Shown here: positions 9,580 through 33,987 of the stretch, in pieces
Layout: each line of letters begins with the position of its first letter
How positions within the stretch are numbered: position 1 is the first letter of the stretch
Source of the DNA: Akkermansia muciniphila
Lineage (GTDB): Bacteria; Verrucomicrobiota; Verrucomicrobiia; Methylacidiphilales; Verrucolacustridaceae
Length of the DNA: 33,987 nucleotides
Direction: 5' to 3'
NCBI GenBank assembly: GCA_945878585.1
Contig: CAMDXQ010000005.1
Span: 1 to 33,987 of the forward strand
Notes under the pieces: generated by a model
The model's input: the letters and a program-made list of their open reading frames with translations, nothing else
Told to the model about the DNA's origin: nothing
Database searches by the model: none
Made by a program: the position numbers and the translations under genes

Positions 9580-12042
9580 ATGCAAACCCGCACCCCATAT
9601 CCTTTTTCAGAAATAGAACCCCGATGGCAAAAGAAATGGGCTGAAGCCAACTGCTTCCGTGCCGCTCAACCCGGAGAAGCAGGGTCGGAAAAACCGAAGA
9701 AATATATCTTAGACATGTTCCCCTACCCTTCAGGGGCGGGTCTTCACGTCGGACATTTGGAGGGGTACACAGCAACTGATATTATTTCACGTTACTGGAG
9801 AATGTGCGGAAAAAATGTTCTCCATCCGATGGGATGGGACGCCTTTGGTCTTCCCGCCGAACAGCATGCTGTTCAGACCGGAACCCACCCTCGCCTGACC
9901 ACGAAAAAGAATATCGATAACTTTCGAAGGCAGATCCAGGCCATGGGATTTAGTTATGACTGGTCTCGTGAAATCGATACCACCGATCCCGCCTACTTTC
10001 GATGGACTCAGTGGATTTTCTTGAAGTTATATGAAAAGAATCTGGCCTATGTGGCCGAAGCCCCCGTCTGGTACTGCCCCATTCTTGGGACAGTCCTAGC
10101 CAACGAAGAAGTTCTCAATACTCCCGAAGGTCCCCACTCCGAACGTGGAAACCACCCGGTGGAAAGGCGTCCGATGCGCCAATGGATGCTCAAGATTACC
10201 GCCTACGCCGAACGACTCCTTCAGGATCTCGACCTGCTCGATTGGCCCGAGTCTCTCAAGGAGATGCAAAGAAACTGGATCGGAAAAAGTGAAGGCGCGG
10301 AAGTCGATTTTCAAGTAGATGGATCGGGTCACAGGATCACCGTATACACAACCCGGCCTGACACCCTCTTTGGAGCATCTTACGTTGTCCTCTCTCCTGA
10401 GCATCCTCTGGTCCCTACCCTGACTACGCATGAGCAAAAAATAGCTGTAGAGAAGTATCGAAAAGATAGTTCCTCCAAGTCCGATCTGGAACGAACTGAA
10501 TTAGCGAAAACAAAAACCGGAGTTCCCATCGGCCGTTTTGCAGTAAACCCTGTGAATGGCGAAAAGATTCCGGTTTGGGTGGCCGACTATGTTCTCGCCT
10601 CATACGGGACTGGTGCAGTGATGGCTGTTCCTGCTCATGACGAGCGGGACTTTGAGTTTGCGAAAACATTCGATCTTCCAATTCGTGTGGTAATTCACGG
10701 ACCCGATTCTCACCCGGCCGAAAGCTGCTTCACAGGAGAAGGTGTGAACGTGAATTCGGGTTTCCTTGATAAGAAAACTTCAGCGGAAGCGAAAGTTGCG
10801 ATGATCGAATGGCTGGAGAATCAGAAATTTGGACGGCGGCAAATCCGGTACAAACTGCGCGATTGGCTTTTCTCCAGACAAAGGTATTGGGGGGAACCCT
10901 TTCCGATCGTCTGGCAGGGGGAAAAACATCAACCCCTGTCCCCCCAGGATCTCCCCCTTACCTTGCCTGAAATGCAGGACTATCAACCCTCTCCCACTGG
11001 AGAACCCCCTCTGGCCAAGGCCGTATCTTGGATCAAGCTGGCCGATGGACGAATTCGCGAAACCAATACCATGCCCCAATGGGCCGGCTCCTGTTGGTAC
11101 TACCTTCGCTTTTGTGACCCAAATAACTCCCAAGCCCCTTGGAGTCCCGAGGCGGAAAAGTATTGGATGAGCAATGGTGGAGTCGATTTGTATGTTGGCG
11201 GGGCTGAACATGCAGTTCTTCATCTCCTCTACGCCCGGTTTTGGCACAAGGTCCTATTCGATCTAAAGCTCGTTTCTCATCCGGAGCCGTTTCGGCGCTT
11301 GGTCAATCAGGGCATCATTCTAGGAGAGGATAATCGGAAAATGTCGAAATCGGTAGGGAATGTCGTCAACCCGGATGACGTCATTGCACAATATGGTGCG
11401 GATGCATTGCGGGTATTTGAAATGTTCATGGGACCTTTGGAGCAGATGAAGCCTTGGAGCTCTAAAGGCATGGAGGGGGCGATTCGTTTTCTTGCCAGAG
11501 TTTGGCGACTGGTGTGTGAGGAGACCGAATCGGGAGAATGGATCCCCTCCCCTGCGTTAACGGATGATCCTGCCGATCAAGAGACAGTCCGTGCTCTTGC
11601 CAAAACTACAGCCAAGGTCACTTCGGATATCGAATCCCTCCAGATGAATACCGCTATTTCGGCTCTGATGATCTTGGTGAATCATCTCACGGGACTGAAT
11701 TCTCGCCCAAAGTCTGCAATTATTCATCTTGCCCGCTTGCTCGCCCCCTTTGCCCCTCATCTTGCTGAAGAGATTTATCTGCGCTTGAAAGGAAAAGGCC
11801 TAATCAGTCTTTCCGATTGGCCCACGTATCGTCCGGAGGATCTTGTGGATGCAGTCGTAGAACTTCCGATCCAAGTGAACAGCAAAGTAAGGGGAAAGAT
11901 CCAGCTCTCCCCTCAAGCCTCCAAAGAAGAAATCGAAGTGATCGTAAGGAACCACCCAGAGCTATCAGCTTGGGCCGGAGGCAAGAAGATCGATAAGATC
12001 ATCATCGTCCCAGGCCGGATTGTGAACTGCATCTGCTCATGA
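9580..12042 (+). CDS. leuS: leucyl-tRNA synthetase
   Basis: This class I synthetase charges tRNA-Leu. In the 820-residue product the HIGH motif appears as HVGH (56-59) within PYPSGAGLHVGHLEGY, and the KMSKS motif is intact at 587-591. The CP1 editing domain lies roughly at 230-430, with TTRPDTLFGASYVVLSPEHP and GAVMAVPAHDERDFEFA, including the conserved Asp of the hydrolytic site. The catalytic core continues with QRYWGEPFPIVW and GSCWYYLRFCDP. The C-terminal end has the usual LPIQVNSKVRGKI segment. No convincing ribosome-binding site precedes ATG 9580, which sits in an A+T-rich inverted repeat. The stop overlaps the next small frame (ATGA). Confidence 0.97.
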   Translation: MQTRTPYPFSEIEPRWQKKWAEANCFRAAQPGEAGSEKPKKYILDMFPYPSGAGLHVGHLEGYTATDIISRYWRMCGKNVLHPMGWDAFGLPAEQHAVQTGTHPRLTTKKNIDNFRRQIQAMGFSYDWSREIDTTDPAYFRWTQWIFLKLYEKNLAYVAEAPVWYCPILGTVLANEEVLNTPEGPHSERGNHPVERRPMRQWMLKITAYAERLLQDLDLLDWPESLKEMQRNWIGKSEGAEVDFQVDGSGHRITVYTTRPDTLFGASYVVLSPEHPLVPTLTTHEQKIAVEKYRKDSSSKSDLERTELAKTKTGVPIGRFAVNPVNGEKIPVWVADYVLASYGTGAVMAVPAHDERDFEFAKTFDLPIRVVIHGPDSHPAESCFTGEGVNVNSGFLDKKTSAEAKVAMIEWLENQKFGRRQIRYKLRDWLFSRQRYWGEPFPIVWQGEKHQPLSPQDLPLTLPEMQDYQPSPTGEPPLAKAVSWIKLADGRIRETNTMPQWAGSCWYYLRFCDPNNSQAPWSPEAEKYWMSNGGVDLYVGGAEHAVLHLLYARFWHKVLFDLKLVSHPEPFRRLVNQGIILGEDNRKMSKSVGNVVNPDDVIAQYGADALRVFEMFMGPLEQMKPWSSKGMEGAIRFLARVWRLVCEETESGEWIPSPALTDDPADQETVRALAKTTAKVTSDIESLQMNTAISALMILVNHLTGLNSRPKSAIIHLARLLAPFAPHLAEEIYLRLKGKGLISLSDWPTYRPEDLVDAVVELPIQVNSKVRGKIQLSPQASKEEIEVIVRNHPELSAWAGGKKIDKIIIVPGRIVNCICS

Positions 12043-32730: not shown

Positions 32731-33474
32731 ATGCGTCGATCCATTTGCCTGCTCGCGATCTTCACCTTTCCCTATTTTCAGGGCCATTCAGCCCCTTCAA
32801 TGGAAACGTCGTCTCAGCCCTTCGATTTTGATTCTTACCGCAGAAACCCCATTGAGGCGAAGCGTAAGCCCACCTATGCCGCAGAGGGGCGCGATCTTCA
32901 GGACAACCTCCTTGCAGGAAAGAAGGGTGGAAAATCCGATATCTCCAAGGAAGCTGCCGATCTTTTCCCCAAGATGGAAAGCATCCCGCTGAAGACGGAG
33001 CCTCAACCCATCCCCACACCCCGGGAGCTGACGGATCAAGTCACGGCAAACCGTTCTGGCCAGGACTCAAAGGGACGAATTGATTTACTCGCCCGTGGCA
33101 AAGTAGCAAAGGAGCTCAATCTCTCCTCAATGTCGGAGACCGAATACGAACTTTACGCGACTCAAAAGCAGAACTTAGAACAGGAGAAGCCCGACAAACC
33201 GAATCTACTGAACCCAATGCCTACCGTTACGAATCTTAAGACCGATGGGCCGGCTCACGCGTACTCCGTAAGCCAAGCCGGAGTAGGGACACGAACAAAA
33301 ACAGGTTCGAATCAGGATCCTTTTGAAGATGTAGTCAAGTTCCTCCGCCTCGACCAGCCTGTGACACACGGGGAAGATCCGCTGCCCACAGGGTCCAAAA
33401 AATCTACGGCCCCAGTTACGCCGACACCCGCATCGATCACGGGGCAAGCCAGTCCGTCTGCAGGGGCCTACTAG
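32731..33474 (+). CDS. secreted low-complexity protein, hypothetical
   Basis: The 247-residue protein has a short signal peptide (MRRSICLLAIFTFPYFQGHSA, cleavage likely after residue 21). The mature chain is polar and poor in hydrophobic clusters, rich in Lys, Asp, Pro, Ser and Thr, with several segments such as LNLSSMSETEYELYATQKQN and a Pro/Thr/Ser-rich C-terminal tail. That suggests a largely disordered periplasmic or envelope protein. No domain is recognised. ATG 32731 is the natural start because the signal peptide begins there. It is the last chromosomal gene before the tRNA-Ser fragment. Confidence 0.7.
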   Translation: MRRSICLLAIFTFPYFQGHSAPSMETSSQPFDFDSYRRNPIEAKRKPTYAAEGRDLQDNLLAGKKGGKSDISKEAADLFPKMESIPLKTEPQPIPTPRELTDQVTANRSGQDSKGRIDLLARGKVAKELNLSSMSETEYELYATQKQNLEQEKPDKPNLLNPMPTVTNLKTDGPAHAYSVSQAGVGTRTKTGSNQDPFEDVVKFLRLDQPVTHGEDPLPTGSKKSTAPVTPTPASITGQASPSAGAY

Positions 33475-33476
33475 CC

Positions 33477-33508
33477 CCAACCCTATTTTGCTGCAAAAAG
33501 CGGGTTGG
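33477..33508 (+). terminator. hairpin after the secreted protein gene, possible terminator
   Basis: CCAACCC (33477-33483) pairs perfectly with GGGTTGG (33502-33508). Inside it TTTTGC-T-GCAAAA forms a second small palindrome. The hairpin starts two bases after the stop codon. There is no T-run after the stem, so it is either a rho-dependent or non-classical terminator, or a 3' stabiliser. Confidence 0.45.
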
Positions 33509-33534
33509 CTCGCGACCCGATATTCTCGTAATGT
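33505..33534 (+). promoter_or_regulatory. possible promoter of the tRNA-Ser fragment
   Basis: TTGGCT (33505-33510) and TAATGT (33529-33534) are separated by 18 bases, and the tRNA 5' end lies ten bases beyond the -10 box. The boxes match consensus only partly. If it works, the upstream part of the tRNA gene is still its original chromosomal copy. Confidence 0.4.
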
Positions 33535-33544
33535 TTTAGCTCCG

Positions 33545-33604
33545 GGTGCGGTGGCAGAGTGGTCGAATGCGGCGGTTTGCTAAGCGGACTTTCCCTACGG
33601 GAAA
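33545..33604 (+). tRNA. truncated tRNA-Ser(GCU), 5' half only
   Basis: GGTGCGG (acceptor 5' strand), TG, the D arm GCAGAGTGGTCGAATGC and the anticodon arm GGCGGTTTGCTAA (anticodon GCT at 33579-33581) read exactly as a bacterial class II tRNA-Ser up to 33583. Beyond that the 3' anticodon stem should read ACCGC or similar, but the sequence is GCGGA and pairs at only three of five positions. A hairpin TTTCCC-TAC-GGGAAA (33590-33604) sits where a variable arm could be. There is no T arm (no GTTCGA-like loop) and no acceptor 3' strand complementary to GGTGCGG before 33987. It cannot make a functional tRNA as it stands. Confidence 0.75.
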
Positions 33605-33634
33605 TTGTGTTGCAGACAGACTTGGCAACAATTT
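33602..33634. repeat. imperfect inverted repeat beside the tRNA break
   Basis: AAATTGTGTTGC (33602-33613) and GCAACAATTT (33625-33634) are inverse copies with a two-base bulge, separated by 11 bases. The repeat lies between the tRNA break and the integrase start, where recombinase or directionality-factor binding sites are often found. It could equally be an mRNA leader hairpin. Confidence 0.4.
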
Positions 33635-33646
33635 ACACTATTCAGA

Positions 33647-33987
33647 GTGAGTCCTGCTTCCTATCACCACAAAAAATCAAATAATTGGCCGAAAATCTCA
33701 AACGTAAAAGTTAGAGGACAAAAATTCTGGATGGTCGATGCCAGACAATCGATCAAAGGCAAAGCAATCGGACGACGCTTCTTCTTTGAAACTCAAGTCC
33801 TCGCCCTCAAGCATGCCGACGATCTCAGAAAAGAACGCGCCCTCTCAGGCGTTGCCGTGCATGGCGCTATTCCCGGCGTTATGACCGAGGCCGAACGTCG
33901 CGATTGCCTTGAAGCTCTAAACCTCCTTCGCCCTTTACGCTGTTCCCTTTTTGAGGCCGCTCAGCTCGCCAAGGCTCATCTAGAACG
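33647..33987 (+). CDS. N-terminal part of a probable tyrosine-recombinase integrase
   Basis: The frame is open from GTG 33647 to the window end (113 codons), so the C-terminal catalytic domain is not visible. The visible part starts with a short basic region and then VKVRGQKFWMVDAR, KGKAIGRRFFFETQ and ALKHADDLRKER. This beta-strand and basic pattern, followed by a helix, looks like the Arm-type N-terminal domain of integrases: a compact strand-rich unit with a (R/K)-x-FF-x-T-x-x-x-A segment. AEL-type helices (EAERRDCLEALNLLRPL, LFEAAQLAKAHLE) follow, as at the start of a core-binding domain. The assignment rests on this pattern plus the tRNA context. ATG 33731 is a shorter alternative start. 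Confidence 0.6.
   Translation, partial: MSPASYHHKKSNNWPKISNVKVRGQKFWMVDARQSIKGKAIGRRFFFETQVLALKHADDLRKERALSGVAVHGAIPGVMTEAERRDCLEALNLLRPLRCSLFEAAQLAKAHLE

Follow-up and report, generated by a model that had tools for sequence, protein, structure and literature searches.

Phages and islands that target tRNA genes usually carry the 3′ half of the gene in attP and rebuild the tRNA with this element-borne 3′ half while the native promoter is kept, which is unlike the arrangement described here, although the class of target and the enzyme family are the same. The use of a 5′ half was called uncommon in the first-pass annotation of this DNA, and this is borne out by the Islander survey, in which 3760 islands had a 3′ fragment and 159 of the 3919 (about 4%) had a 5′ fragment (PMC4383910). 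The Islander 5′-fragment islands resemble the arrangement proposed for our locus in having a tyrosine integrase, a native 5′ fragment at one end and a rebuilt gene at the other, and the Islander classes include crossovers in the anticodon loop, as presumed here (PMC4383910); the host lineage and the integrase are different. An element that reverses the usual orientation of the target gene and that, like ours, recombines in bacteria with the 5′ portion of its target tRNA gene was reported by Zhao and Williams in 2002 (J Bacteriol 184:859), as that work is cited in PMC6563490. The archaeal pTN3-like integrases likewise use a tRNA gene's 5′ half as attB, after which expression of the rebuilt tRNA comes from the DNA of the element, but the integrase gene is split on integration (PMC8371274), whereas the bacterial relatives described here keep it whole. 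Therefore, the 5′-half class was already known from these three cases; a literature precedent for 5′-half integration in this phylum was not found.

The window (the whole stretch of DNA that was analysed) is the entire contig C5, 33,987 b in length, from a genome bin of 1.48 Mb in 120 contigs that is 88% complete with 4.4% contamination. The features at its right-hand end are given below, where G007 is a finished genome from the same order as the window organism.

32731 to 33474, plus strand: host gene of 247 aa, of no known family, with homologues in 12 genus relatives; native left flank marker of the tRNA locus.
33505 to 33534, plus strand: candidate native tRNA promoter (TTGGCT, 18 nt, TAATGT), of which the TTGG box and the spacing are conserved, as judged by eye, upstream of the relatives' tRNA-Ser(GCU) genes.
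33545 to 33583, plus strand: native 5′ half of tRNA-Ser(GCU), covering nucleotide 1 through the anticodon loop, with the same sequence as its counterparts in genomes G060, G051, G050 and G048 and in phage contig L196.
33577 to 33583, plus strand: anticodon loop TTGCTAA, the presumed 7-bp crossover overlap, at which tRNA identity stops in the window, in phage attP sites and in the G007 element, and from which we infer the exact crossover.
33584 to 33646, plus strand: element arm from the core to the integrase, with a hairpin at 33590 to 33604 and the motif TTGGCAACAATTTACAC at 33622, and without a tRNA 3′ half.
33605 to 33987, plus strand: N-terminal part of a putative tyrosine-recombinase integrase, recognized by similarity to the G007 integrase, cut by the contig end and starting at TTG 33605 or GTG 33647.

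The sequence from 33545 to 33583, GGTGCGGTGGCAGAGTGGTCGAATGCGGCGGTTTGCTAA, is 39 nt long and ends in the seven bases TTGCTAA of the anticodon loop. This 39-mer occurs once in the window, had no matches in shuffled sequence, and is 90 to 100% identical to the 5′ part of tRNA-Ser(GCU) in 14 genus relatives, 13 of which have a gene that is complete by ARAGORN while that of the remaining one runs off its contig. The alignments of the window to the relatives' genes all stop at base 33583, and no mutation was found within the 39 nt, which confirms the original observation that the gene is exact to this base and then loses its 3′ part. After the anticodon loop, the relatives' genes continue as ACCGTTGTACGGG... 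up to CCGCACC, and the window continues as GCGGACTTTCCC..., which is not tRNA sequence. In the window, ARAGORN reported no complete tRNA, no Rfam match was obtained around the split site, and the 3′ half that would complete the gene beside the integrase in a usual 3′-half element is absent after 33583. In the rest of the 88%-complete bin, neither an intact tRNA-Ser(GCU) nor a 3′ half that matches was found. The first-pass annotation had envisaged a second copy of the 5′ half with an intact 3′ half further along; none was found elsewhere in the bin, and the contig ends at 33987.

Comparison with genus relatives placed the split gene at its ancestral locus. Homologues of the gene at 32731 to 33474 are directly upstream of an intact tRNA-Ser(GCU) in several relatives (G056 to G061), and the order in the relatives is host gene, intact tRNA-Ser(GCU) and nadC, with small ORFs between the tRNA and nadC in G057. 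In the window genome, nadC is not on C5 but near the end of contig C3, which, read towards nadC, starts about 10 nt beyond the expected 3′ end of the tRNA. It follows from the 5′ half on C5 and the nadC edge of C3 that the two contigs were ancestral neighbours and that the insertion lies between them. Because the native left flank and the conserved upstream DNA precede it, the 5′ half on the integrase side is the chromosomal original, and a native tRNA 5′ fragment thus stands at one end of the element at the ancestral locus. Since tRNA-Ser(GCU) was found once in each genus relative, the cell presumably needs the gene, which must be kept.

The reading frame that begins beyond the split is 33% identical to the 444-aa G007 integrase over 98 aa (residues 14 to 106; E 5e-7 as a single comparison), a weak similarity, with homology to this recombinase beginning near 33692. 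The integrase-like start had been put 63 bases on; this holds for GTG 33647, but as a fixed figure it does not, because the distance is 21 to 63 bases depending on the start codon. Searches of Pfam and PHROGs with this N-terminal fragment gave no match, and an integrase-family profile run against the window ranked the right frame first at a non-significant E of 0.67, which is explained by a profile that covers little of the N-terminal domain. Close relatives of the window integrase were found neither in the genome contig collection, which also lacked close relatives of the G007 integrase, nor in phage records, and queries of IMG/VR with the integrase protein, the junction pattern and the arm pattern did not recover the same element. 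Weak matches to the frame across the phylum were mostly judged to be chance, except for loci L080 and L085. The arm contains TTGGCAACAA, the complement of a repeat, TTGTTGCCAA, of which two copies lie close to the far end of the element in G007 and near copies adjoin the G007 integrase gene; TTGGCAACAA, a motif picked after inspection and found once elsewhere in the window, occurred in 0 of 5000 shuffles of the 100-b arm. The arm also shares CAAYAATTTACAC with some phage attP arms.

The element in G007 could be compared with an empty site in G008, a congener of G007. The G007 integrase (444 aa) has a PHROG integrase match (3.4e-18) and a weak Phage_integrase match below the curated cut-off, and among annotated phage proteins it is closest to the integrases of Akkermansia phages, a kinship that suggests a verrucomicrobial host. 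Directly upstream of it is a tRNA-Thr(CGU) 5′ half, GCCACTTTAGCTCAGGGGTAGAGCAACGCTTTCGTAA, cut after the anticodon loop at TTTCGTAA and followed by non-tRNA DNA, and 11.5 kb further on there is an intact tRNA-Thr(CGU) and then tRNA-Ala(CGC). The empty site in G008 consists of the same upstream gene (80% identity), an intact tRNA-Thr(CGU) and, where the contig ends, tRNA-Ala sequence. The native 5′ half carries A4, paired with U69, both in G008 and beside the integrase gene of G007, whereas the rebuilt tRNA-Thr(CGU) of G007 has G4 and a G-U wobble. Therefore, the rebuilt G007 gene uses a 5′ half borne by the element. As read from their sequences, the two genomes provide attL, attR and the empty site, with the rebuilt gene at the end distal to the integrase. 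A weak relaxase match between the element ends (E 1.7e-4, below the curated cut-off) and interior frames resembling mobilization and membrane proteins indicate that this is probably a small mobilizable element. In a set of 29 integrase loci from the class, a 5′ half was found next to the integrase in none except the G007 query; where these loci adjoin a tRNA, it is mostly intact.

A search of IMG/VR with the host 3′-half junction retrieved L181, a viral contig of 5.8 kb in which 83 b separate the start of a terminase gene (PHROG terminase, 1.5e-12) from the 5′ end of a tRNA-Ser(GCU) that is intact and of host type, and which stops a few bases past the tRNA. Its relatives with terminases 97 to 99% identical, on contigs of up to 76 kb, have at that place a bare 39-nt tRNA-Ser(GCU) 5′ half, as do more distant relatives with about 86% terminase identity. 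L181 would then be an integrated junction at the integrase-distal end, composed of a phage 5′ half and a host 3′ half; it could instead be a phage with a whole tRNA, given that the contig ends at the tRNA. In the phages, the 5′ half is followed by arm DNA and the integrase gene in the same direction, as in contig L197:

8471 to 9748, minus strand: integrase.
9878 to 9916, minus strand: tRNA-Ser(GCU) 5′ half.
10001 to 11716, plus strand: terminase.

The 39-nt 5′ half was found between the integrase and terminase genes in 15 phage contigs, the arrangement of an attP with a bare 5′ half beside the integrase gene. Identity between phage and host stops 2 to 4 nt after TTTGCTAA. Four of the five phage 5′-half alleles are identical to alleles of the sampled host species, and one phage has the allele of the window itself. 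The 39 bases are kept from nucleotide 1, beyond the needs of the recombinase core, as is predicted if a functional tRNA has to be rebuilt. The window integrase is not close to the integrases of the phages that carry this tRNA-Ser half.

We consider it very probable that an integrated element has its integrase-side junction (attL) at the end of the window, and that a 5′ half at the far end of this element would rebuild tRNA-Ser(GCU); the element is probably a phage or a small mobilizable element. A tyrosine integrase would join attP to the tRNA-Ser(GCU) gene of the chromosome in its anticodon-loop region, with the crossover within the 7-bp loop, so that the native promoter and native 5′ half would stay on the left, beside the integrase gene, and the native 3′ half would be moved to the far end of the element. 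The attP site would bear its own tRNA 5′ half on the side away from the integrase gene, and this half would be joined to the native 3′ half to give a working tRNA at the integrase-distal end, the transcription of which would come from the DNA of the element. A further consequence may be that transcription from the host tRNA promoter continues across the half tRNA and into the integrase gene. The first of the options originally listed, that the tRNA is rebuilt at the far end with a 5′ half brought by the element itself, is supported by the G007 and G008 comparison, the phage attP sites and L181; an intact tRNA rebuilt from an element-borne 5′ half at the other end is seen in G007 and probably in L181. 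The window, G007 and the phages agree in having the integrase gene on the side of the fragment and not on that of the rebuilt gene. Contig C5 stops short of the far end of the element and of the catalytic domain of its integrase, and for the window element we infer the far-end 5′ half, the restoration of the tRNA, the promoter and the catalytic domain.

The proposal that the element supplies a promoter for the tRNA follows from this geometry, but a sigma-70-like promoter was not recognized upstream of the element-borne 5′ halves: strict consensus scans gave nothing above chance in G007 or in phage contig L197. A strict consensus scan also misses the candidate native promoter at 33505 to 33534.

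It is very unlikely that the tRNA is disrupted by the element and left so, with another tRNA-Ser gene reading the AGC and AGU codons. The absence of a far-end copy from the bin would fit such a disruption, but tRNA-Ser(GCU) was found once per relative, the bin has no second copy, and the related element and phages all bear a complete 5′ half.

Less probable again is a usual element that had its 3′ half next to the integrase gene and has since decayed or been deleted. An integrase in the usual order beside an intact tRNA-Ser(GCU) does occur elsewhere in the class, at L085 (862 to 2021), where a broken integrase frame comes right after the tRNA and the same target is used in the ordinary 3′-half way. 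The break in the window, however, is exactly at the end of the anticodon loop, at the same base as in the 15 phage attP sites and the G007 element, which decay would not pick, and the first 39 nt are without mutation.

An assembly chimera or strain mixture that put unrelated integrase DNA next to a tRNA 5′ half, or a group I intron, is the least probable explanation, because, although the bin is fragmented (120 contigs) and 4.4% contaminated and has tRNA-Thr(UGU) twice in near-identical contexts, the junction coincides with the recombination point of independent contigs and a finished genome, and no Rfam match for a group I intron was obtained in the 404 b of insert present.

Other pairs of integrases and tRNA genes were seen in the same genome and elsewhere in the class. 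A second integrase in the window genome (L111, 15560 to 16791, contig C7) begins shortly before the 5′ end of an intact tRNA-Val(UAC) and faces away from it, possibly an integrase-proximal form of a 5′-half element. A third (L114, 622 to 1923, contig C17) is downstream of tRNA-Val(CAC), in the usual order, and is followed by phage-like genes, including a possible DNA polymerase A. Elsewhere in the class, in other genomes, the integrases at L130, L131, L135 and L138 lie close to an intact tRNA, on its 5′ side and with the tRNA on the opposite strand, and these positions raise the possibility that 5′-side integration may be common in this group. The tRNA-Thr(UGU) gene occurs twice in the window genome with near-identical upstream DNA (L268, 1 to 72, on contig C45, and L269 on contig C22), and C45 stops exactly at the 3′ end of the tRNA, as if strains differ by an insertion there.

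Having weighed these alternatives against integration with a rebuilt tRNA at the integrase-distal end, we return to the phages, in which the same site appears in a second form. Seven close relatives (L187, L192, L193, L195, L198, L205 and L248) have, at the same place upstream of the terminase gene and in the opposite orientation, a tRNA-Thr(UGU) 3′ half that is identical to the host gene, and their integrase-side arm resembles that of the tRNA-Ser phages. Because the half tRNA in attP is on the side away from the integrase gene, the host tRNA is expected to be rebuilt at the integrase-distal end, and both the tRNA-Ser and the tRNA-Thr versions would rebuild it at the terminase end. We think it likely that throughout this lineage and its phages the attP half lies away from the integrase gene and the tRNA is always rebuilt at the integrase-distal (terminase) end, and that a single phage lineage, with terminases about 98% identical, swaps both target gene and polarity through one arm of the symmetric anticodon-loop core.

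Elements that use a 5′ half must supply the expression of a host tRNA that is usually essential. As the arrangement is represented here by free phages, by an integrated form, by a finished genome and by an empty site, the questions of whether the element's promoter drives the tRNA and whether the tRNA promoter drives the integrase gene become testable. Exact matching of 5′-half alleles links uncultured phages to host species, and the set of phages suggests how an att site can change its target gene and polarity.
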